The position numbers and the translations under genes are program-made. Below are positions 1 to 39,004 of a stretch of DNA of 64,000 nt, one piece after another (positions within the stretch are counted from its first letter, which is position 1; each line of letters opens with the position of its first letter). The DNA comes from Chloroflexota bacterium. GTDB taxonomy: Bacteria; Chloroflexota; Anaerolineae; Promineifilales; Promineifilaceae. The DNA lies in NCBI GenBank assembly GCA_022616275.1, contig JAKEFB010000209.1, positions 25,301 to 89,300 of the forward strand, given 5' to 3'. A model generated the notes under the pieces. The model saw nothing but the letters and a program-made list of their open reading frames with translations, had not been told where the DNA came from and made no database searches.

Positions 1-17
1 AGTGAGGGTTGCCTGGT

Positions 18-257
18 TCATAGGGTATGCTCTTTGTTGTCTAGGAGGAGAAAGGGGTGAGGGCCAGTGATGAGCCGGGCGCCGCGTTTACGGGTGAAGT
101 AGGTCCAGGCCCGTCGTTTTTCCGGGTCGGGTTCCCGTTCGGCCGCTTCGAAGGCCAGGAAGATGCGCTGGCGCATTTCAATGGCATCCTCAATCGTCTT
201 CAGCCCGGGGGCAGCCTCTTCCCAGGGCTTGCCGAAGTAGTAGGTCTGGGAGAATGA
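18..257 (-). pseudogene. Relic of a type II NADH dehydrogenase (NDH-2) with a large internal deletion
   Basis: The minus-strand frame between stops at 260 and 18 encodes a segment (TYYFGKPWEEAAPGLKTIED, then an Arg/Glu-rich helix ending EREPDPEKRR) that I recognise as the region just before the second Rossmann GGGPTG motif of FAD/NAD(P)-dependent NDH-2 enzymes. It is followed directly by AWTYFTRKRGARLITG, which resembles the extreme C-terminal tail of the same family. The intervening Rossmann core of roughly 200 or more residues is missing, and so are the N-terminal FAD-binding part and any start codon. It lies just downstream of the sensor kinase gene. What is left cannot be a functional oxidoreductase. 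The family assignment is from memory of NDH-2 sequences; the collapsed gene structure is visible in the sequence. Confidence 0.6.
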
Positions 258-281
258 TCACCTGGTGAGTCAAGGGCTGCA

Positions 282-3176
282 TCAATTCTGGCTGTCGAGG
301 TGTCGCCAGACGGCGCTGGCCAGGGTTTCCCAATCGTAGGGTTTTTGGATAAAACCGGCGATGCCCCGCCCCTGGAAGGCGCGGTTGACTTCGGCGGCGC
401 TGTAGCCGGAAGAAAGGATAACCTGCACCTGGGGATTGAGCCGTTGCAGTTCGCGAAAGGTCTCTTCGCCACTTAAACCAGGCATAGAGAGGTCCAGCAA
501 CACCAGGTCAATATCGGCCGCCTGCTCCTGGTAGAGGTGAATGCCCTTCAGGCCATCGGCCGCAGCGATCACCCGCAGCCCCTCTAGTTCCAGGATGTCG
601 CTGGCAGCTTCGCGCACGGCCGCTTCGTCATCAATGACGAGCACGGCGCCGGGCTGCTTTCTGACCGGTTGGGCCGGGGCGAGGATTGGCAGCCTGGCTA
701 CTTCCGCTTCGCTGACGGGGAATAATAGCTCAAAGGTCGTGCCCTGGCCTACCTGGCTGGAGACCGACACGCCGCCCTTATGGCCGCGCATAATACCCAG
801 CACGGCAGCCAGGCCCAGACCCCGGCCAGTGAACTTGGTGGTAAAGAAGGGATCAAAGATTTTGCCCAGGGTATTGTCGTCCATGCCGCTACCGTCGTCG
901 GCGACCTTGAGGAAAATGTACTGGCCGGGTTTCAGGGGGTCGTTTGTTTCTCGCCAGTAGTGGTTGTCGTTCTGGCCAATCAGCCGTTCGCCGGTGGTGA
1001 TGACGATGGCGCCCGGCCGGTCGCCAATGGCTTCGGCAGCGTTCAATACCAGGTTCATGACGACTTGCTGAATCTGGCCCAGGTCGCCCTCAATGGCGAC
1101 CAGAGGGTCGGCCAGCTCCCAGCGCAGTTGGACGTGCTTAGGAAGGGAGACTTCCAGCAAGGGCGTACTTTCCCGGAGAAAGGCGTTCAAATCAATCGGC
1201 CGGTGAGTAAACTGGCCCCGGCCGGAGTAAGCCAGCAACTGGCGAGTGAGGTCGGAGGCTCGTTCGGCGGCCTTGACTGCTTTTTCGACGTGTTGACGGG
1301 CTGAATTCTCGGGCGGCAGCTTGAGCAAGGCCAGGGAGGTCTGGCCGAGCATGGCCACGAGCAGGTTGTTGAAGTCGTGGGCGACACCGCCGGCGAGGAT
1401 GCCCAGGCTTTCCATCTTCTGGCCGTGGCGCAGGGCCTCTTCCGCTTGTTTGCGCTCGGTAATGTCGGTGATAAAACCTTCCAGGGCCAGCACCTCGCCC
1501 TCGGACGAATAGACGCCCTGCCCCTGTTCCCAGACCCATTTTTCCCGGCCATCTTTGTGGTAAACGCGGTAGCTCAGGCGGAATGGTTGCCGCCTGGCCA
1601 GCGCTTCCTGAACTTCATTCCACACCCGGTCGCGGTCGTCAGGGTGGATCAGGTCGCCATAATACACCTGACCGCCTATAAATTCCTCGGGCCGGTAGCC
1701 GGTCAGTTCAATGCTGCCATCGCTGACAAATTCATTGCTCCAGCGGCGGTCGTTGCGACAACGGTAGACCATCCCCGGGAGATTGCTAATGAGCGTTGAG
1801 AGGGCGCGCTGGCTTTCCTGAAGGGCTTCTTCAGCCTGCTTGCGCTTGGTGATATCGCTGATGAAACCGGCCAGGAACAACAGCCGGCCGTCGTCGTCAA
1901 AAACGCCGCCCCCGTAATCTTCCACCCAGCGCCATTCGCCAGAGCGGTGGCGGATACGATAGCTAAGTTGGAAGGAGCCCTGCCGTTTTAACTCCTCGTC
2001 ATCTTCCGGCAGAATGAAGGGGCTATCGTCAGGGTGATAGATGTCTCGAAAGGTGATGCGGTTTTCCAGGAACTCTTCTTTGGGATAGCCGGTAAGAGTT
2101 TCTACAGCGTCGTTCAGGTAGAGCATGTTAAAGGTGTAGTTGTTTTGGCAGAGATAGATGACGGCCGGGGCGTTATTGGCCAGGATGTGAAATCGCTCTT
2201 CGCTCTGGCGCAACGCTTCTTCAGCTTGCCGGTAGTCAGTCACGTCGTGTAACACACCCTGGAGCAGGCGCTGGCCCTCCAGCGCGAAGATAGTGGCAAA
2301 GACCTGGACGCTCAGTTCCCGGCCGTCGTGGCGGATTAGCCGGGTCTCGACGGCGTGTTGCTCACCCTGGATGATCCGGTCGAAAATGTGCCGGGCCTCT
2401 TCGAGGTAGCCGGCCGGGGCCAGATGGGAGAGAGGCATGGCCTGTAATTCAGCCTCGGAATAGCCGGTTAGAAGCTCGGCCCTGGGGTTGGCCGAGATAA
2501 TCCGGCGCTGTTGGGGGTTTATGACGACGATAGCGTCGTTAGAAGTTTCAAAGAGGCGGCGGTATTGCACCTCGGCCCGGTGCATGGCCTGGAAGAGGCG
2601 GGCGTTTTCCAGGGCGACGGCGATGTGGTTGGCAAAGGCGACTATAGCCGGCACATCTGCGGCCGAAAGGCCAGGTCCAAAAACGGCAAGCGTGCCAAAG
2701 AGATGCCCTTCGCTCAATAGCGGCGCGTAAATACCGGGCTGTTCCCCTAGAGAGCCGGCGATCTCTTTAGCGTACTGGCGAACGTCGAGAGGGAGGACTG
2801 GGGCAATATCGCCGCTAATGTCAGCGACAAAGAAAGCCTCTTTGGTCGTAACCAACCGCCTGTAAACATGATCTTCATCGGTGGTGAAGGATAGACCTTC
2901 ACCTTTAAAGCCAATCATTTCTTCCAGACTTTGCAGCAGATGGCCGGGGAAGGCAACAGCGCGAAAGGTGAGTTTCTTACCTTGCTCGTCGAGCAGCGCT
3001 AGAGTACCGTTTAAGCCCACCCGAGTGATCTGTTCTTTGAAAGTGTGGAGAACTTTGACTTCAGAATGGGGTGCGCGTTGCAGAGCGGCCGCGGCGGCAT
3101 TCAACGCGTGTAGAAAATCTGCTCTTCGCGTGGCAGGAACTGGTTCTTCATCAGGCTGTGCGACTGTGTACACCAT
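282..3176 (-). CDS. Hybrid sensor histidine kinase (GAF-PAS-PAS-PAS-HisKA-HATPase-REC)
   Basis: 964-aa soluble hybrid kinase with no transmembrane segment or signal peptide, so it probably senses a cytoplasmic or diffusible signal. Domains in order: GAF-like about 25-195; three PAS/PAC units about 205-320, 325-450 and 455-580, the last two of the PAS-fold-3 type (HPDD and DITxRKQAEEAL linkers); dimerisation/phosphoacceptor helix with the H-box GGVAHDFNN (His600); HATPase with N-box NLVLNAAEA near 708, G1 box DDGSGM near 760 and FTTK/GRGLGL near 778-789; and a C-terminal receiver about 843-962 with acidic VIDDE, phospho-Asp895 and Lys945. The AHDFNN H-box is typical of the NtrB-like/HPK4 class. 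No DNA-binding response regulator is adjacent, so the output partner is unknown. The gene is followed by an NDH-2 relic. The start is ATG. Confidence 0.9.
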   Translation of the reverse strand: MVYTVAQPDEEPVPATRRADFLHALNAAAAALQRAPHSEVKVLHTFKEQITRVGLNGTLALLDEQGKKLTFRAVAFPGHLLQSLEEMIGFKGEGLSFTTDEDHVYRRLVTTKEAFFVADISGDIAPVLPLDVRQYAKEIAGSLGEQPGIYAPLLSEGHLFGTLAVFGPGLSAADVPAIVAFANHIAVALENARLFQAMHRAEVQYRRLFETSNDAIVVINPQQRRIISANPRAELLTGYSEAELQAMPLSHLAPAGYLEEARHIFDRIIQGEQHAVETRLIRHDGRELSVQVFATIFALEGQRLLQGVLHDVTDYRQAEEALRQSEERFHILANNAPAVIYLCQNNYTFNMLYLNDAVETLTGYPKEEFLENRITFRDIYHPDDSPFILPEDDEELKRQGSFQLSYRIRHRSGEWRWVEDYGGGVFDDDGRLLFLAGFISDITKRKQAEEALQESQRALSTLISNLPGMVYRCRNDRRWSNEFVSDGSIELTGYRPEEFIGGQVYYGDLIHPDDRDRVWNEVQEALARRQPFRLSYRVYHKDGREKWVWEQGQGVYSSEGEVLALEGFITDITERKQAEEALRHGQKMESLGILAGGVAHDFNNLLVAMLGQTSLALLKLPPENSARQHVEKAVKAAERASDLTRQLLAYSGRGQFTHRPIDLNAFLRESTPLLEVSLPKHVQLRWELADPLVAIEGDLGQIQQVVMNLVLNAAEAIGDRPGAIVITTGERLIGQNDNHYWRETNDPLKPGQYIFLKVADDGSGMDDNTLGKIFDPFFTTKFTGRGLGLAAVLGIMRGHKGGVSVSSQVGQGTTFELLFPVSEAEVARLPILAPAQPVRKQPGAVLVIDDEAAVREAASDILELEGLRVIAAADGLKGIHLYQEQAADIDLVLLDLSMPGLSGEETFRELQRLNPQVQVILSSGYSAAEVNRAFQGRGIAGFIQKPYDWETLASAVWRHLDSQN

Positions 3177-3204
3177 TCTCGCCCCAGGTAAATTGCAACG
3201 AATG

Positions 3205-3239
3205 ACGCAAAAACTTTGCGCCGCGCAAGGTTTTTGCGT
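3205..3239. repeat. Inverted repeat upstream of the sensor kinase
   Basis: Two 16-base arms (3205-3220 and 3224-3239) pair with one mismatch across a 3-base loop. The arms are built on the ACGCAAA word also found in the hairpin at 59931-59971. It sits between the GH4 stop and the kinase start and could fold in RNA, but it has no adjacent T-run that would make it a classical terminator. Confidence 0.6.
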
Positions 3240-3305
3240 TCACGCGAATTATCGCGAAAAAGTGGTGGGCGTTGGCCCACGGGAACTCCTGCCGTGAACT
3301 GTATC

Positions 3306-4721
3306 TTACACTAAACAGGGCTTCAATTTCCACTCACCAGTAAATTGAGGCAGGTAACGGGCGAAAGCAGCCAGATAATCGTCCAGGATGGCTCGGGCCC
3401 GGCCGATGTCGTTGATCATGGGGTCTAGCAGCAGAGCCTGGAGGGCCAAGTCACGGTCGCCGGTAACGGCCGCGTCTACGACCAACTCTACCAGCGCCGC
3501 TTCACGCCGGCATAGCTCGGCAATGGCGGCCGGCAGCGGAGCCAGGTTAATGCCCTGAACGCCCAGGCCACTGACCAGGGCCGGCAACTCGACAATAGTT
3601 TCGTCCGGCAGGTTGGGGATGGCCCCAGCGTTGGGGACGTTGACGGTGTCGGCGTAGTAGTTGGCGTTGCCGGCAATCGCTTCGATCAATTCGGCCGCTC
3701 CTTCGCTGGGAACATCACGGAGTCCTTCCACTGAGAGAGAACCAGCGGCCATTTTGGCAACCATGTCCTGGCTAAAGACGCGGTAGGCCTCGTTGCCGGC
3801 CCAATCGTAGAGCCGCAAGTTGTAAAACTCCCACGGCTTACCGGCCGGGTCGTGGGTCCAGGGCAAGTATTCGCACAGGTGGGTATCGCCAGGGACAGGG
3901 CAATAGCCCAGGACACGGAAAAGCTCCAGGGTTAGCGGCTCGAAGCCGGCCGGGACGTTGTGGGCGGCAGCGCGCAGGGCCGGGTAGAGGTCCTGGCCGG
4001 TGTGCCGGTCGCGGACGTCCACCATCCAGGTGAAGTGGTTGAGTCCGGCAGCTTTGATGTCCAGGTAGTGACGGCCGAGCTGGGCCATCATTTTAATGAC
4101 GGGCACGTTGGCCGGGTCGGAATGGAGATCTACCTGGGGCGGGATCTCAAAACCGAAGTGATCGGCCAGCAGGAAAGCGGCAATGGCGTAGCCAACATCC
4201 AACTGGTGGCACTTGCCAACCGTCTTGATGCGGCTGTACTTGGCGATGGCCCGCGTGACGCGGGGCAGGGGGTTGCTGAAGTTGACGAGCCAGGCATCCG
4301 GACAGAGTTCTTCCATATCGCGGACAATGTCCATGAAGGGAGGAATTTGCCGGCAGGCGTGCATCAGGCCGCCCGGGCCGCCGTTCTCGCCGTAAGGCTG
4401 GCGCAGGCCGTGTTTGAGGGGAATTTCCCAGTCCAGGCGCCATAAGACTTCGCGGGGCGGCACTTCGATGGAAACGACGACAAAACGAGCCCCGGCCAAT
4501 ACGTCGCGACGATCGGTGCTGGCTTGAATGGCCGTGCCGGCCTGCCATTCGTCGCTCATGCGCTCGGCCACGCGGGCCATGTTGGCCAGGGCCTGGGCGT
4601 CCAGGTCCACCAGGGCCAGGCGACTGTCCTTCAAAATGGGGCTGCGCATTATGGTGGCCAGTGTGCTGGGGCCAAAGCTGGCGCTGCCGGCACCGATAAT
4701 GACAATGTTTGTTGCGGGCAT
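3306..4721 (-). CDS. Glycoside hydrolase family 4 (alpha-galactosidase/alpha-glucosidase-like)
   Basis: 471-aa cytoplasmic enzyme of the unusual NAD+- and metal-dependent GH4 family, which cleaves glycosides by an oxidation-elimination-addition-reduction route. Visible signatures: N-terminal dinucleotide-binding GAGSASFG (10-17), acidic residues at the end of beta-2 (VDLD, 38-41), the substrate/metal region ENGGPGG (112-118), NFSNP (147-151) and GKCHQ (169-173), whose Cys171/His172 match the metal-binding Cys-His pair of the family. The length is normal for GH4. Substrate (alpha-galactoside, alpha-glucoside or glucuronide) cannot be fixed by eye. The gene stands alone: no sugar transporter or regulator is adjacent. 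An AGCTATCAG-type repeat (4734-4760) lies directly upstream, with AAGGAGAACC just before the ATG as ribosome binding site. Confidence 0.88.
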   Translation of the reverse strand: MPATNIVIIGAGSASFGPSTLATIMRSPILKDSRLALVDLDAQALANMARVAERMSDEWQAGTAIQASTDRRDVLAGARFVVVSIEVPPREVLWRLDWEIPLKHGLRQPYGENGGPGGLMHACRQIPPFMDIVRDMEELCPDAWLVNFSNPLPRVTRAIAKYSRIKTVGKCHQLDVGYAIAAFLLADHFGFEIPPQVDLHSDPANVPVIKMMAQLGRHYLDIKAAGLNHFTWMVDVRDRHTGQDLYPALRAAAHNVPAGFEPLTLELFRVLGYCPVPGDTHLCEYLPWTHDPAGKPWEFYNLRLYDWAGNEAYRVFSQDMVAKMAAGSLSVEGLRDVPSEGAAELIEAIAGNANYYADTVNVPNAGAIPNLPDETIVELPALVSGLGVQGINLAPLPAAIAELCRREAALVELVVDAAVTGDRDLALQALLLDPMINDIGRARAILDDYLAAFARYLPQFTGEWKLKPCLV

Positions 4722-4733
4722 AGGTTCTCCTTA

Positions 4734-4760
4734 ATAGCTATCAGCTTTCAGCTATCAGTT
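4734..4760. repeat. AGCTATCAG-type direct repeat
   Basis: Short imperfect tandem copies of a TAGCTATCAG word lie between the divergent GH4 and acs genes. It belongs with the other microsatellite-like intergenic repeats of this window. The rest of 4761-4864 holds a GAGCGAGAGC-rich stretch and the acs ribosome binding site. Confidence 0.5.
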
Positions 4761-4864
4761 ACAGTTTTACGTTTCAGGCGTTAGTAATTATACTTGGAGA
4801 GTAGGGAGAGTAAATTGGAGTTTTGAGCGAGAGCGAGAGCAAGAGTTAAATCAAGGAGGCATGG

Positions 4865-6769
4865 ATGTCTGAAAAAAAGCAGATGGTCGGTGACGTTTAC
4901 TATCCAACGCCTGAGGTTGTGGCCCAGGCACACGTTCCCGATTACGAGAAGGTTAACAGCGCGGCCGTGGCGGACCTGGCCGGCTTCTGGGGCAGAATTG
5001 CCGCCGAGAACTTTGAGTGGTACGAGCCGTGGGAAACGGTTCTGGACGAGAGCAACGCTCCATTTTATAAGTGGTTTGTGGGGGCCAAGGTGAATATTGT
5101 TCACAATGCCCTGGACCGCCACCAGCGCACGGCCGTGCGCAACAAGGCAGCGATGATTTTTGAAGGCGAGCCGGGCGACGTGCGGGTGCTGACCTACCAG
5201 CAGTTGAACCACCAGGTCTGTAAGTTTGCCAGCGTGCTACGCTCAATGGGTGTACGAAAAGGAGACCGGGTGACGATTTACATGGGCCGTATCCCAGAGT
5301 TGGCGATTGCTATGCTGGCCTGCGCCAAGATTGGGGCGATGCACTCGGTGGTCTACGGGGGTTTTTCGACCGAGGCGCTGCACGAACGGATTGAAGACAG
5401 CCAGTCCAGGGTGCTGGTGACCTGCGACGGGGCCTGGTTGCGGGGCCAGATCGTGGAGTTAAAGAAGATTGCCAACGAAGCGGTGGATCGTTCGGCGAGT
5501 ATTGAGACGGTGATCTGCGTCAAGCGCACCGGCCAGGAAGTGGAAATGGTTGCCGAACGGGACCATTGGTACCACGACTTGATGAATCTGCCGATTGCCA
5601 GTCCGAAGGCGGCCACGGAGGTGATGGATGCCGAAGACCCGCTTTTCATTCTTTATACTTCGGGGACGACGGGCAAACCGAAAGCGATTTTGCACACCCA
5701 CGGCGGTTACATGGTTGGTACGGCGACGACGCTGAAGTGGGTGTTTGACATTAAGCCGGAGGATATCTGGTGGTGCGCGGCCGATCCGGGCTGGATTACC
5801 GGCCACAGTTATATTGTCTACGCCCCGCTGGTGTTAGGGGCGACCAGTTTTATGTACGAGGGCGCACCGACCTATCCCAACCCCGACCGATGGTGGCAGT
5901 TGGTAGCCAGGTATGGCATTACCATTTTATATACAGCCCCGACGGCTATTCGGGGCCTGATGCGTTTTGGCGAAAGCTGGCCGGAGCAACACGATCTCTC
6001 TAGCCTGCGGCTGCTGGGGACGGTGGGCGAGCCGATTAACCCGGAGGCCTGGCGGTGGTATTATCGCTACATTGGCAAGGAGCGCTGCCCGGTGATGGAC
6101 ACCTGGTGGCAAACGGAGACAGGCAGCTTTATGATTACGCCGGTGCCCAGCATGCCCTTGAAGCCCGGCTCGGCGACGCGGCCGTTCCCCGGCTTGCAGG
6201 TGGACGTGGTGGACGAGGAAGGAAATCCGGTGCCGCCGAACGAGGAAGGTTACCTGGTAGTTAAAACGCCCTGGCCGGCGATGCTGCGGACGATTTATGG
6301 CGACCCGGACCGCTACGTCAACCAGTATTGGAGCCGTTATGAAGAGCAGGGCTGGTATCTGCCTGGCGACAGCGCCAAGAAGGATGAGGACGGGTACATC
6401 TGGATCATCGGCCGGATTGACGACGTGATCAAGGTCTCCGGCTACCGGCTGGGAACGGCCGAAGTGGAGAGCGCGCTGGTCAGCCACCCGGCCGTAGCCG
6501 AGGCAGCAGTGATTGGCGTGCCCGACGAACTGAAGGGTAACATTATCAAGGCGTTCTGTATCCTGCGTCAGGGTTACCAGGGCAGCGAGAAGCTGGCGAA
6601 GGAGTTGAAGGATCACGTGGGCCACGAGATTGGACCGATTGCCAAGCCGGCGACAGTGGAGTTTGTCTCGACGCTGCCGAAGACGCGTTCGGGCAAGATC
6701 ATGCGGCGGGTGTTGAAGGCGCAGGCATTGGGGCAGGACGTGGGGGACGTTTCGACGCTGGAAGCGTAA
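4865..6769 (+). CDS. acs: Acetyl-coenzyme A synthetase
   Basis: 634-aa AMP-forming acetyl-CoA synthetase, converting acetate, ATP and CoA to acetyl-CoA, AMP and PPi. The ANL-superfamily core is intact: the phosphate-binding loop YTSGTTGKPK (about 263-272), the acetate-pocket WWCAADPGWITGHSY region, the TWWQTETG adenylation motif (about 413-420), the hinge IGRIDDVIKVSGYRLGT and the C-terminal catalytic lysine within KTRSGKIMRR (about 606-615), which is also the usual acetylation site. The length fits the family (about 630-660). Start ATG at 4865, preceded by a strong AAGGAGG seven bases upstream. The product PPi could be consumed by the membrane pyrophosphatase encoded 1 kb downstream, although the genes are convergent and not one operon. 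Confidence 0.95.
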   Translation: MSEKKQMVGDVYYPTPEVVAQAHVPDYEKVNSAAVADLAGFWGRIAAENFEWYEPWETVLDESNAPFYKWFVGAKVNIVHNALDRHQRTAVRNKAAMIFEGEPGDVRVLTYQQLNHQVCKFASVLRSMGVRKGDRVTIYMGRIPELAIAMLACAKIGAMHSVVYGGFSTEALHERIEDSQSRVLVTCDGAWLRGQIVELKKIANEAVDRSASIETVICVKRTGQEVEMVAERDHWYHDLMNLPIASPKAATEVMDAEDPLFILYTSGTTGKPKAILHTHGGYMVGTATTLKWVFDIKPEDIWWCAADPGWITGHSYIVYAPLVLGATSFMYEGAPTYPNPDRWWQLVARYGITILYTAPTAIRGLMRFGESWPEQHDLSSLRLLGTVGEPINPEAWRWYYRYIGKERCPVMDTWWQTETGSFMITPVPSMPLKPGSATRPFPGLQVDVVDEEGNPVPPNEEGYLVVKTPWPAMLRTIYGDPDRYVNQYWSRYEEQGWYLPGDSAKKDEDGYIWIIGRIDDVIKVSGYRLGTAEVESALVSHPAVAEAAVIGVPDELKGNIIKAFCILRQGYQGSEKLAKELKDHVGHEIGPIAKPATVEFVSTLPKTRSGKIMRRVLKAQALGQDVGDVSTLEA

Positions 6770-33411: not shown

Positions 33412-35407
33412 ATGTACGAACCAGGACTTTACCGGGTCATCTCTACAGCGGTGGAGTGTATTCGGACCAAGATGGCCGCTGTTGTGCCTTTTATGGCTGA
33501 AAGAGCGCAAGGCTGGATGGCCCAGTTATCGGGAACGGCCCGGCCGGAAGATTACTTTTTGCATCCGGTCGCTTTTCCCATGTTTCTGCTGCCGTGGTGG
33601 GCGGAAAAGACCGTTCAATCAGAACCTACTATCGCTCTGCAGTCTAACCTGGCTTACTCGACGGCTAATGGTTACTACACCATTCGCCTGATTGACAACC
33701 TGATGGATGGTGATGCCAACGCTGACGTGGCTTTATTACCATCCCTTAACTTCTTTCACACCGAATTTCAACGACCCTACCAACTCTACTTCTCGGCCGA
33801 TCACGCTTTCTGGTCGCTTTTCACTCATGTCTGGTTCCGCTCCGGCGAGTCGGCGATGGAGGATGCTGCCCTGACCGACCTGGACGAAAGCCAGTTCCGG
33901 CAGGTGGCGGCGCAAAAGGTGTGTGCAGCCAAGATCCCGGTGGCGGCCATTTGTTATGTCCACGACCGGCCGGAACTGGTCGAGCAGTGGTCACAGCTTA
34001 TAGACCTGCTGGGTTGCTGGCATCAGATGTGGAATGACCTGTTTGACTGGCACAAAGACCTGGCTCACCAGGCGCAGACCTATTTCCTGGCCGAAGCGGG
34101 GCGGCGCAAGGGGCCGGCCGAGTCGGTTGCGGGGGCATTACAGTTACCCGATTGTGCGGGTAATGGCGGCGGCGGGCATTCCCCTGGAACGACCGGTGGT
34201 AGCGGAGAAGGTCCTGGGGGCGATGCTGCTGACAGGGGCGATTCGCCAGCTCTGCCAAGAATGCCAGGAGCGGCTGGCCGCCGGCCGGGCCACGGCCGAA
34301 GAGATAGGCCTGCCGACCTGGGTAGCCTACTTTGACTTATTTGGCGAGGTTATCCAGGAGCTGAGTGGGCTGTTCTCGCTGAAGAAAGCGGCCGGCCAGC
34401 CGGGCCAGCCGGTGCGCAACGCTTTCGCGCCGTACACGAACACGCTGGCCAAGGCGGTTCAAGCGGCCGAGGATTACTTGTTGTCTGACTTAACTTTTCG
34501 CGAAGGTTGGGATACGCAACGCCATACCCTTCTTGACCGGCCGAAGGTGGTGGCCCGGGCCTTTCCAGTAGGGTTGGTTGTAGAGACCTTGTGCGCGAAC
34601 GGGCACGACATGTCTACCCCGGTGGTTGACGTTTTCCGGTGGCTGGCCGAAAGCAATTTTGGCTACTGGGAGGGTTTCTCCATCCAGCCTGATGCTGACT
34701 GCTTGGGCCTGTTGCTACGGCTCTTTCCCTACTCACCCCAGAAGGAATCTCACCACGACTTGCTCCAAAGACCGCTGCGCTGGTTAGCAGCCAATATTCT
34801 CCCTTCCGGTGAAATCCCGGTCTTTTTTCAGCAAGGGCTGGACGGGATTACTCCCGAAACCATTGTTTGGGGTAATAATTGCGTAGCGGTTGAAGTAAAC
34901 GCTTTGTTAGGGTTGATTGCTTACGATTGGGAACAATACCAGCTAATCATTGAAAAATCGGCCCTGAACCTGTTTTCCCGCCTGGTCCGAGATGGGCTGA
35001 GTCCACTTTCTCACTACCCGCCGCCATATGGCTTGTGGGGGGTATTTAACCTGATGGCCCAATTATCAGCCCAACCTATCAGCCCGGCGTTGCAACACCA
35101 GATAGAACAGGCTGGCCATAGGCTCAGGCAGCAGATGGCGCAAGTGGCGCAGGCGTGGCCGGTAACTGCCCAGAATGCGGCTTTTTGTGCCCTGGCCTGC
35201 CTGGGAAGCGCGGCCGAGCCATTGTTTGATCGCCAATGGATTACCCGGCTACTCAAAAGCCAGCGGTATGATGGTGGTTGGGATGACGAAGCTCTCTACC
35301 CAACGGCCGCTCGCGGCGGCCAGGCCCAATGGTACAGCAGCCGGACGGTGACGACGGCCTTTTGCTACCACGCTTTGCAAACGTACCAGCGGCACACAGG
35401 GGTATAA
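33412..35407 (+). pseudogene. Frameshifted two-domain terpene-synthase-like gene
   Basis: Two overlapping frames (33412-34335 and up to 35407) are parts of one protein. Removing one G from the GGGGG run at 34131-34135 joins ...GPAESVAG to HYSYPIVRVMAAAG and gives about 664 aa. The N-terminal half looks like a class I isoprenoid synthase: acidic cluster IDNLMDGD (94-101) and a second metal-type motif NDLFDWHKD (208-216). The C-terminal half resembles a terpene cyclase/prenyltransferase alpha-alpha barrel: PDADC (Asp427, Asp429; compare the DxDD acid motif of class II cyclases) and a QW-like LLKSQRYDGGW near 612-622. The flanking polyprenyl synthase and IPP isomerase 2 support an isoprenoid role. 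Whether the shift is a sequencing error, a real mutation or phase variation cannot be decided here. I cannot name the product. Confidence 0.65.
34131..34135 (+). other. GGGGG homopolymer at the frameshift point
   Basis: Five G residues within GTTGCGGGGGCATTAC. Reading with four restores a continuous, compositionally uniform protein across both frames. The frame change is needed only here. Confidence 0.7.
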
Positions 35408-36904: not shown

Positions 36905-37606
36905 ATGAATACCAAGAAGTCGCAATCGCTGCGCAGACGCCAGAATATTGGGCTGGCGGCCGGGTCTCTTTTGAGCCTGGTCGTGGTCGGCCTGTGGTTG
37001 TTGCCGGTCCATACCAGGTGGCGCACGCCAGGGCCGATGAATGTGGGCCACGAAGAGTTGCTGTGCCAGGATTGCCACCAGCCGGCCGAAGGAACTCTGC
37101 GGCAACAACTGCAAGCTAATGCCAGGTATCTATTTGGTTGGCGAGAGACGGCGGCCGCGGTTGGTTCCAGGGACGTTGACAACGTGGCCTGCCTGGCCTG
37201 CCACGACCAGCCTGACGACCGGCATCCCGTTTTTCGTTTCCTGGAGCCACGCTTTGCCGAAGCGCGCGAGGAAATCGCGCCCCAGTTTTGTCTTTCTTGC
37301 CACCTGGAGCATAACGGGGCGCGCGTCACAGTACAGGACGCCGCTTTCTGCATTCATTGTCACCAGGAGACGAAGGTAAAAGACGATCCTATTTCGACGC
37401 CCCACGAGGAACTTATTGCCGCCAGGCGGTGGGAAACGTGCCTGGGCTGCCACGACTTTCATGGCAACCACGTGATGGAAACTCCGGTAGACGTGATAGA
37501 TGCTTTCAGCACCGAAGAGATTATGGCGTATTTTGCCGGTGGGCCTCCGCTTTATTCGAACACGAAAGTCTACGTCGCCCCCAAGGAGGGCCTGACGAAT
37601 GAGTAA
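36905..37606 (+). CDS. Membrane-anchored pentaheme c-type cytochrome
   Basis: 233 aa, first gene of a three-gene overlapping operon. One N-terminal membrane helix (about 14-34) and an extracytoplasmic domain with five CxxCH heme-attachment motifs: CQDCH (54-58), CLACH (96-100), CLSCH (129-133), CIHCH (149-153) and CLGCH (179-183). Additional histidines (His49, His107, His136, His167, His186) could be distal ligands. The general look is that of NapC/cytochrome-c3-like doubled heme pairs, but I do not recognise a named family. I place the start at ATG 36905 (TGGAGG upstream); the longer frame from 36854 lacks a ribosome binding site. The next gene starts 8 bases before this one ends. Likely role: electron relay at the outer face of the membrane. 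Confidence 0.85.
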   Translation: MNTKKSQSLRRRQNIGLAAGSLLSLVVVGLWLLPVHTRWRTPGPMNVGHEELLCQDCHQPAEGTLRQQLQANARYLFGWRETAAAVGSRDVDNVACLACHDQPDDRHPVFRFLEPRFAEAREEIAPQFCLSCHLEHNGARVTVQDAAFCIHCHQETKVKDDPISTPHEELIAARRWETCLGCHDFHGNHVMETPVDVIDAFSTEEIMAYFAGGPPLYSNTKVYVAPKEGLTNE

Positions 37607-38450
37607 CAAGAGCTTTGTTGTTATTACCCTGGTCCTGGTGGCCTTGATCGTCTATTTGTTTGCCAGCGCCCCGCCTCCTCTGGCGGAAACAAGCTCCCCG
37701 ACTGCTACTATCCCGATCGAAACGGTTTTCACGATAGTGGAAGCGGAAAATGACGTGGTTCGGGGGCTGTGGACGCAGGAGATTGTTAGCGCCGGCAAAG
37801 AAGTGGGACTGGCTTTTAATGAAGAGTGGCGCAGCCGAGAGGTTGAAGCCGGACCACTGCCGGCGCTGTTTTTGCGAGAAACGGCCGGCAGCTTAGAAAG
37901 GAATCCTATCAGCCTGGGGCTATTTTTAGGCTCCGATTTTCCTATCAACGAAGCGAACCTTTTGGCCGGGCAGCAGGCTGAGATGTTCACGCGTATTCAA
38001 GGTACCCAGGAACCTCAATTTTTCTTTGCCGAAGACACGGGGTTATACGTTGCCATGTTTTCTGATGTGGCCATAACGGAAGGGTGTGTGAAATGTCACA
38101 ATGAGCATCGGCAGAGCCCGAAGAATGACTGGCAGTTAGGGGACGTAATGGGGGCGACGACATGGTCGTATCCCAAAGAAAGCGTGACTCTGGACGAGCT
38201 ACTGGCCATTATGGAGGCTCTTCGCCAGGGCGTCCGGGACGCTTACAGCGCTTACCTGGCCGAGGTGGAGACGTTTACCAATCGGCCGGAGATTGGCGAG
38301 AGGTGGCCGGCCGAGGGTTACTACCTGCCGTCAGTGGACGTGTTTATGGCTGAGGTCAGCCAACTGGCCTCAGCGCATTCGATGAATATGATTCTGGGTC
38401 TGGATAGCCAGCCAACGAGCTTTTACGTACAGGAGCAGACAACGAAATGA
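37599..38450 (+). CDS. Tll0287-like (DUF3365-type) monoheme c-type cytochrome
   Basis: 283 aa. N-terminal membrane anchor (about 6-23, VVITLVLVALIVYLFAS), then a PAS-like/Tll0287-type sensor or electron-transfer fold about 38-200 with one CVKCH heme site (163-167), and a helical C-terminal part. In this family the heme domain is often found with signalling or redox partners. The start codon overlaps the upstream cytochrome gene, with AAGGAGGG ten bases before it inside that gene, which indicates translational coupling. The following gene overlaps by 4 bases (ATGA). Together the three proteins bring five c-hemes, one c-heme and probably two b-hemes. The Tll0287 assignment is from memory of the fold's motifs. 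Confidence 0.75.
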   Translation: MSNKSFVVITLVLVALIVYLFASAPPPLAETSSPTATIPIETVFTIVEAENDVVRGLWTQEIVSAGKEVGLAFNEEWRSREVEAGPLPALFLRETAGSLERNPISLGLFLGSDFPINEANLLAGQQAEMFTRIQGTQEPQFFFAEDTGLYVAMFSDVAITEGCVKCHNEHRQSPKNDWQLGDVMGATTWSYPKESVTLDELLAIMEALRQGVRDAYSAYLAEVETFTNRPEIGERWPAEGYYLPSVDVFMAEVSQLASAHSMNMILGLDSQPTSFYVQEQTTK

Positions 38451-39004
38451 GTCTGAGAACAATGCCCAAGCTCTTCAGCAGGGCGAACGGCGACATTTTT
38501 CACTTACCTCGCCTGGCTCGATCCCCGGCGAACTTCCAATGGACGTGGAATGCCGTCGCCATTGTGTTGCTGGCCGCGTTTTTGTGGCAGGATGGATGGA
38601 ACTTTCAGTGGTCCTGGCTGCAACAGTTGCAGACCAAGGAGTGGTATAGATACCTTTCCGGTGTTGTGCTGATGATTTATATTGCCATACAATGGTTGTT
38701 GACTGTTGTGAGAGTGCGAGGCCGGACAGAGCTGGCCAAAGTTCATTATCGGCGGCACCAACGGGTCGGCGCGCTGGGGCCACTTTTCTTTTACGCCCAT
38801 TCATCAGAAATGGGTTATGCTTATGTGGCTGTGCTGAGTTCTGTCTTTTTTCTGAATCTTGCCGTCGGTCTACTTAACCCAACGGCGGTGAGGGTCAGAA
38901 GTCCCCAGTACAAATTCTGGTGGGTGGTTGGGCACGTGCTCTTATCTGTTTCGACGGCCGTCATTGCCGGCTATCACGCTTACGTGGCTTTCTACTATAA
39001 GTAG
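38447..39004 (+). CDS. Four-helix membrane cytochrome b-like protein
   Basis: 185 aa with four predicted transmembrane helices (about 31-49, 67-89, 124-143 and 157-183). Five histidines are notable: His100, His104, His118, His163 and His177. His104/His118 and His163/His177 are both 14 residues apart, the spacing that in cytochrome b561/ferric-reductase-type proteins places two axial ligands on one helix for two stacked b hemes. I infer a diheme b protein that moves electrons across the membrane, to or from the co-encoded c-type cytochromes. No NADH or flavin domain is present, so the cytoplasmic-side partner would be quinone or another protein. Starts in an ATGA overlap with the upstream gene. 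Confidence 0.6.
   Translation: MSLRTMPKLFSRANGDIFHLPRLARSPANFQWTWNAVAIVLLAAFLWQDGWNFQWSWLQQLQTKEWYRYLSGVVLMIYIAIQWLLTVVRVRGRTELAKVHYRRHQRVGALGPLFFYAHSSEMGYAYVAVLSSVFFLNLAVGLLNPTAVRVRSPQYKFWWVVGHVLLSVSTAVIAGYHAYVAFYYK

Follow-up and report, generated by a model that had tools for sequence, protein, structure and literature searches.

INTRODUCTION

In NOX proper, the FAD/NADPH domain lies in the same chain as the membrane part and C-terminal to it. Heme-copper NO reductases (cNOR and qNOR) have a catalytic subunit, NorB, with the heme-copper oxidase fold. Six transmembrane helices are described for NOX2 and SpNOX in PMC5676040 and for MsrQ-like proteins in PMC8238504; the latter also reports systems of the MsrQ-like kind that have NAD-binding domains and pass electrons to acceptors outside the cytosol. 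Proteins of the sCache_heme family were characterized in PMC12889525, where a tested member associated with signalling binds NO and an sCache_heme protein without an axial Cys releases NO slowly. A stand-alone protein with Cys/His ligation was judged there to be of the redox type and released NO fast. A Cys-to-Ala variant of the stand-alone protein was still fast in NO release, so removing the Cys is not in itself sufficient to create a tight NO site. In Bradyrhizobium, according to PMC4724949, the assimilatory nitrate reductase makes NO, and a globin-flavoprotein pair (Bjgb-Flp) in the nitrate-assimilation operon protects against NO donors.

Here we describe three genes, A, B, and C, from the window, i.e., the whole 64,000-nucleotide stretch of Chloroflexota DNA analyzed, that form a conserved module and most likely encode a relay by which cytosolic electrons reach six outer c hemes. 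No description of this gene set came up in searches of open-access papers.

RESULTS

Three overlapping genes encode predicted heme proteins.

The genes and their motifs are located in the window as follows.

36905..37606, + strand: A, pentaheme c cytochrome, N-terminally anchored (233 aa; ATG at 36905, TAA at 37606)
37064..37078, + strand: A heme motif 1, CQDCH (from the sequence)
37190..37204, + strand: A heme motif 2, CLACH (from the sequence)
37289..37303, + strand: A heme motif 3, CLSCH (from the sequence)
37349..37363, + strand: A heme motif 4, CIHCH (from the sequence)
37439..37453, + strand: A heme motif 5, CLGCH (from the sequence)
37599..38450, + strand: B, sCache_heme (Tll0287-like) protein with an N-terminal anchor (283 aa; Pfam match)
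38085..38099, + strand: B heme motif, CVKCH, residues 163-167 (from the sequence; invariant in 27 aligned sequences)
38447..39004, + strand: C, five-helix membrane protein, putative diheme b cytochrome (185 aa; motifs, conservation, and model)
38756..38800, + strand: His104-x13-His118 of C, third model helix (sequence, alignment, and model)
38933..38977, + strand: His163-x13-His177 of C, fifth model helix (sequence, alignment, and model)

As a preliminary description of this DNA had stated, the genes overlap, A and B by 8 bases and B and C by 4 bases, and a purine-rich stretch that resembles a ribosome-binding site lies ahead of each of the three starts. The same description had called A a membrane-anchored pentaheme c cytochrome, and we indeed found five CxxCH motifs and a single, N-terminal hydrophobic segment (residues 15-33). 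A matched PF09699 with 35.5 bits (cut-off, 20.6). In an alignment of 27 sequences, the five CxxCH motifs and six further His residues were invariant, and we propose that these conserved His would be enough for bis-His ligation of five c hemes acting as an electron wire. The NCBIfam cut-offs for DmsE (32.3 versus 192.2) and NrfH (17.0 versus 134.2) were not reached by A of the window, nor was that for NrfB (15.9 versus 166.6) by the A homologue of G032, a relative of the window genome.

B, previously described as Tll0287-like with one CxxCH, scored 34.0 bits with the Pfam Tll0287-like family (PF11845; cut-off, 24.1), and the structure nearest to its model was 5b82, the Tll0287 fold by which sCache_heme is recognized. 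Its hydrophobic segment spans residues 6-24. The axial (distal) Cys of redox-type sCache_heme proteins with Cys/His ligation is absent from B. Beyond residue 40, 59 of 60 aligned B sequences (one of them partial) had no Cys outside the CxxCH, and the lone exceptional Cys sits in a C-terminal extension. Met153 and Met184 were invariant across 27 sequences, and either of them might close, or ligate, the heme of B. No signalling domain was found in the whole-length B proteins P0002 and P0005; further B sequences were scanned for domains in a form trimmed to the profile. Set against the results of PMC12889525, B fits neither tested type of sCache_heme protein fully, being stand-alone and yet without the Cys. 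Separately, a gene in G032, a genome that also has the module, appeared by eye to encode a sensor histidine kinase whose N-terminal part resembles B (L008, 7390-9858; E 7e-13). This kinase is a candidate extracytoplasmic NO sensor; PMC12889525 calls the sCache_heme domain rare or absent in the phylum of G032.

C is predicted to be a membrane cytochrome with two histidine pairs.

Two His-x13-His pairs had been noted in C, together with four membrane helices. The pairs held up, and the helix count had to be revised, since the AlphaFold2 model (mean pLDDT, 86.6) has five long helices (residues 28-50, 65-91, 94-118, 126-142, and 153-183). A hydropathy scan flagged only three regions (around 70-88, 125-143, and 157-182), and the membrane location of helices 1 and 3 is a prediction that rests on the model. 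From a basic stretch seen by eye between helices 2 and 3 and from the N-terminal reductase of some relatives, we infer that the N terminus of C is inside. When C was shuffled, at least two His-x13-His pairs arose in 159 of 20,000 shuffles, so that the window by itself is only modest evidence for the pairs. Both pairs were, moreover, kept in all 59 C sequences of relatives, and the four His were among ten invariant columns in 27 sequences. Conservation and helix placement suggest that the pairs are positioned to hold two b hemes, making C a putative diheme b cytochrome. The C profile matched no solved b cytochrome. PF01794 was matched weakly by 14 of 27 C sequences, all below threshold (E up to 0.1; best, 0.0011), and not by C of the window (P0003), whose chain contains no FAD/NADPH domain. 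A NorB-type Pfam match was likewise found neither in A, B, or C of the window nor in the aligned B and C sequences.

The module is conserved and sporadically distributed.

The preliminary description had made its reading depend on the three genes occurring together in other genomes. We scanned a species-genome collection with B by means of two peptide patterns and obtained 26 loci from 93 pattern matches (Flavobacteriaceae, 19; Chloroflexota, 3; Akkermansiaceae, Thermoanaerobaculia, Proteobacteria, and other Flavobacteriales, 1 each). After omission of L019 and L021, genomes that had been used for building the profiles, all 24 remaining loci had A and C clustered with B, with an A-to-C span of no more than about 4.2 kb. 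In a sample chosen by neither A nor C, 397 genomes drawn evenly from Flavobacteriaceae (the family of L036), 31 had B (E 1e-20), and the same 31 had C (E 1e-6; hypergeometric probability, 7e-47, ignoring relatedness). The 31st of these B-positive loci was L036 itself; the other 30 were fetched, with 7 of the 30 contigs judged from their length to be already in the first set, and contained A and C in 30/30, a reductase in 30/30, and a globin in 29/30. The A-B-C set is thus a real, conserved module, and the co-occurrence on which the earlier reading depended was observed.

Closer to the window, a search of 60 near genomes, its own included, found B together with C only in its own genome and in G032; one more match to C, in G052, was discarded. 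Within the phylum, B was present in 3 of 400 genomes (the window's own, G082, and G238, whose contig ends within B) and, within the class of G082, in 2 of 41. These low counts show that the module is sporadic in Chloroflexota. A was searched for in G082 and not found, and therefore A is not universal. The tree has long branches, and the window grouped with L020, L021, and L013 at a support of only 92/76.

Relatives of the module carry exchangeable electron inputs.

The preliminary description knew of no named system with exactly these three parts and with neither a flavin nor an iron-sulfur subunit; the lack of such a subunit is true of the window and does not hold for the family. All 19 Flavobacteriaceae loci of the first set had, between C and A, an FAD/NAD reductase encoded by a gene of its own, and in the 30 sampled loci such a gene lay between C and A or was fused to A (30/30). 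A Fer2 domain was confirmed in all three loci scanned for it (L036, L042, and L085), the L036 reductase having FAD, NAD, and Fer2 domains. Fusions to the N terminus of A, ahead of its anchor, comprised NAD and Fer2 domains in L042 and FAD, NAD, and Fer2 domains in L085. In G032, Fer2_BFD, FAD_binding_6, and NAD_binding_1 were fused N-terminally to C in one chain, and Fer2_BFD and FAD_binding_6 were fused to C in the same manner in L031. An unusual architecture was seen in Akkermansiaceae (L022, 1301-2800), in which the C chain also contains a cNMP-binding domain and a BFD-type [2Fe-2S] domain (Fer2_BFD), with no FAD domain detected. Relatives thus use several exchangeable inputs: a separate reductase, a fusion to C, a fusion to A, or the cNMP/Fer2_BFD fusion. 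In these fusions, the reductase is joined to C and A on their cytosolic side; of all the evidence, this speaks most strongly for the direction of electron flow. The flavobacterial reductase of L036 scored best with NAD(P)H-oxidizing FNR-type proteins such as PaaE, its top match, and flavohemoprotein, and that of G032 likewise with NAD(P)H-oxidizing FNR-type proteins, in every case below the cut-offs.

No such reductase was seen near the module in the window, L020, L021, or L023. A search of the window genome with the G032 and flavobacterial reductases (E 0.01 and 0.001) found none at a sensitivity that a more distant FNR-type protein could escape. Since no reductase is adjacent, C of the window must be fed by an unlinked reductase or by another donor.

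In Flavobacteriaceae, the module lies with a globin and often with nitrate genes.

The gene order was regulator, globin, B, C, reductase, and A in 19/19 first-set Flavobacteriaceae loci. A Crp/Fnr-type gene was present in all 19 and in 27/30 sampled loci. Within the first-set stretches, NrtA was found in 16/19 and a NapA/NasA/NirB-type match in 11/19; within the fetched stretches of the sample, the counts were 24/30 for NrtA, 23/30 for NrtB, and 17/30 for a NapA/NasA/NirB-type match. The NrtA-type binding protein, of a nitrate-importer type, occurred in 73 of the 397 genomes, including all 31 with B, an association with a hypergeometric probability of 3e-26, ignoring relatedness. One importer ATPase of L025 passed the nitrate NtrCD cut-off (316.3 versus 291.8 bits), and the other fell just short (282.9). 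L039 and L041 have a NasA-NirB-type fusion gene in place of Nap. L036 contains a flavobacterial Nap cluster (3-6358) with subunits resembling DsrP (above the cut-off, 421.9 versus 350) and DsrO (narrowly under, 195.8 versus 200), beside which a small tetraheme protein passes the NapC/NirT N-terminal Pfam cut-off. In Flammeovirga, the set globin-B-C-reductase-A lies behind hemA, with no annotated nitrate gene within 10 kb in a gene table that is incomplete. Its products are annotated part by part as globin family protein, DUF3365, hypothetical protein, ferredoxin--NADP reductase, and cytochrome c3 family protein.

The operon of the window is flanked by an FMN_dh-type gene and an NAD-dependent epimerase gene. 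Seven neighbors were scanned; two had no match at all, and no N-oxide family was hit by any of them. No globin lies beside the genes of the window; its genome has three unlinked single-domain globins (L051, 6202-6681; L052, 6779-7210; L053, 6677-7225) that are 41 to 54% identical to the flavobacterial globin. One of them sits just before a gene matching a 4Fe-4S (DsrO-type) query. Among 11 genomes searched, G032 and G456 had one globin of this type each, and five (G082, G454, G455, G457, and G458) gave no globin match. Elsewhere in the window, at 33412-35407, near a polyprenyl-synthetase gene, two overlapping open reading frames in different frames (307 and 457 aa) look by eye like one continued protein; neither matches Pfam, and a frameshift or sequencing error is possible there. 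In G082, a gene for a sulfite-oxidase-family molybdoprotein (L017, 14583-16151; PF00174 above the cut-off) lies directly upstream of B-C. Its best NCBIfam match was SorA, far below the cut-off, and its product is a possible alternative partner where A was not found.

DISCUSSION

A trans-envelope electron relay is the preferred reading.

The preliminary description had a diheme b protein passing electrons to six outer c hemes. The module behind that picture proved to be conserved, and the relay remains its best reading: C is most likely a diheme relay like those of NOX and ferric reductases, and we hold this relay architecture, taken by itself, with good confidence. In C, helices 3 and 5 would bind two b hemes between them; C would take up electrons at the cytosolic side and hand them to A and B outside the membrane. 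There, the five c hemes of A would serve as an electron wire, and B would present one c heme in a Cache fold at the outer side. In relatives with a reductase, the chain would run NAD(P)H - FAD - [2Fe-2S] - b - b - A - B; the window would encode only its b-b-A-B part, with electrons donated by an unlinked reductase or otherwise. What the data show directly is gene conservation, motifs, domain content, and co-occurrence; heme occupancy, electron direction, and NO as the acceptor are predictions. Without the distal Cys of its redox-type stand-alone relatives, the B heme could be a site that binds and reduces a small ligand, which in Flavobacteriaceae would be NO arising from nitrate use. NO as the end acceptor is suggested by genomic context and by PMC12889525, and the globin and the frequent nitrate-use neighbors hint at a role in the removal of toxic NO in marine bacteria. 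Taken as a whole, an electron-export complex that spans the envelope and handles NO is a tentative proposal, in which we place rather less than even confidence. Several points weigh against NO as the ligand of B. The globin may be the sole NO enzyme of the flavobacterial cassette. The stand-alone protein of PMC12889525 kept its fast NO release after loss of the Cys, and B is a stand-alone protein as well; its Met153 or Met184 could close the heme. No annotated nitrate gene was seen near the Flammeovirga copy, no N-oxide family among the scanned window neighbors, no globin in five of 11 genomes, and no A in G082, and the NrtA association takes no account of relatedness. Against the relay part count the lack of a match between the C profile and any solved b cytochrome, the missing PF01794 hit of P0003, and the mere three regions flagged by hydropathy. 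In PMC4724949, nitrate reduction by NasC and growth on nitrate depend on the flavoprotein too, so that the reductase may serve other partners as well.

Other roles for the same parts have to be weighed. Electrons might go to a separate outer reductase (Nap, a nitrite reductase, or a molybdoenzyme), with B merely one more wire. Some Flavobacteriaceae loci have NapA-type genes close to the module, which would fit this, as would the sulfite-oxidase-family gene upstream of B-C in G082, where A was not found, and MsrQ passes electrons to MsrP in this way (PMC5676040). However, the NasA-NirB-type fusion replaces Nap in L039 and L041, the Nap cluster of L036 owns DsrO/DsrP-like subunits, and no single partner enzyme was seen to be conserved across phyla; we regard a separate reductase as rather unlikely. 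B could instead sense redox state or NO outside, with A and C carrying the state inward or setting that of the B heme and a Crp/Fnr-type protein as output. A pentaheme wire and an NAD(P)H reductase would be costly for sensing, B proteins P0002 and P0005 have no signalling domain, and no regulator is among the immediate neighbors of the window operon. Thus, sensing seems quite unlikely, even though a signalling-associated member of the family binds NO (PMC12889525), the Crp/Fnr-type gene accompanies nearly all flavobacterial loci at the counts given above, and a cNMP-binding domain is fused to C in L022.

It is also conceivable that C and the reductase act as a NOX-like oxidase or as a ferric or metal reductase, delivering electrons to O2 or a metal outside, with A and B extending their reach. 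The four-His pattern and the FNR partner are as in NOX and ferric reductases, and A scores weakly, below threshold, with DmsE-type and NrfB-type cytochromes; the Flavobacteriaceae context, by contrast, is a globin and often nitrate, and we judge this role distinctly improbable. Finally, outer hemes might accept electrons from a donor, and C might pass them into the cell to quinone or NAD(P)+. In principle, a heme relay can run either way, and the window, L020, L021, and L023 lack an adjacent reductase, but the flavobacterial and G032 reductases score best with NAD(P)H-oxidizing proteins (below cut-offs) and no conserved donor-oxidizing enzyme was seen, which makes electron import very improbable.

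Beyond the export relay itself, a more far-reaching version can be formulated, which we consider unlikely. It would be an NO-removing enzyme of a new class, driven by NAD(P)H and spanning the envelope, in which the reductase and the five-helix diheme b protein feed the pentaheme protein, sCache_heme reduces NO outside the cytoplasm, and the linked globin clears NO inside via the same reductase. Its A-B-C core would either be old or have been transferred widely (Chloroflexota, Bacteroidota, Verrucomicrobiota, Acidobacteriota, and Pseudomonadota), with exchangeable electron-input modules.

In the one annotated record, that of Flammeovirga, the parts are named singly, so that they are not recognizable as a single machine. 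Should the relay be correct, a multiheme, Cache-heme member is added to the NOX/MsrQ way of transmembrane electron transfer, and the stand-alone sCache_heme group gains a physiological partner and a link to nitrate use. If NO is indeed the ligand, marine bacteria would have a previously unknown NO sink. With five genes, the function of these DUF3365 proteins becomes directly testable.

Comparison with known systems.

Like NOX, ferric reductases, and MsrQ (FRD, PF01794), C has two His pairs with a spacing of about 14 residues, borne by two membrane helices. In relatives, it comes with an NAD(P)H-flavin module of the FNR type, either as a fusion or as a separate protein, and it would, as we infer, send electrons outward. 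It differs from them in having five model helices rather than six, in PF01794 scores that are only sub-threshold, in a fused reductase that is N-terminal to C or joined to A, and in its acceptors, a pentaheme and an sCache_heme protein. Unlike NOX proper, C of the window has no FAD/NADPH domain in its chain, and the flavin domains of G032 and L031 are N-terminal. C would accordingly be filed outside the family by its five model helices and sub-threshold scores and yet appears to work like MsrQ and NOX. A resembles small multiheme wires (NrfB and DmsE) in its several CxxCH motifs, small size, and weak family scores and departs from them in falling far below the cut-offs, in its own N-terminal membrane anchor, and in a distinct conserved pattern. 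B is like sCache_heme (DUF3365/Tll0287, PF11845) in Pfam score, CxxCH, and a model nearest to 5b82, whereas it has an extra C-terminal part and no distal Cys, starts with an N-terminal anchor or a lipoprotein-like start, and co-occurs with C in 31/31 genomes of the sample. Many flavobacterial loci share with Bjgb-Flp a single-domain globin, an FAD reductase, and nitrate import genes, whereas the Bradyrhizobium operon, as described in PMC4724949, includes no gene for a membrane b cytochrome, a multiheme protein, or an sCache_heme protein. By this analogy, the flavobacterial cassette looks like a Bjgb-Flp-type pair to which a trans-membrane arm has been added.
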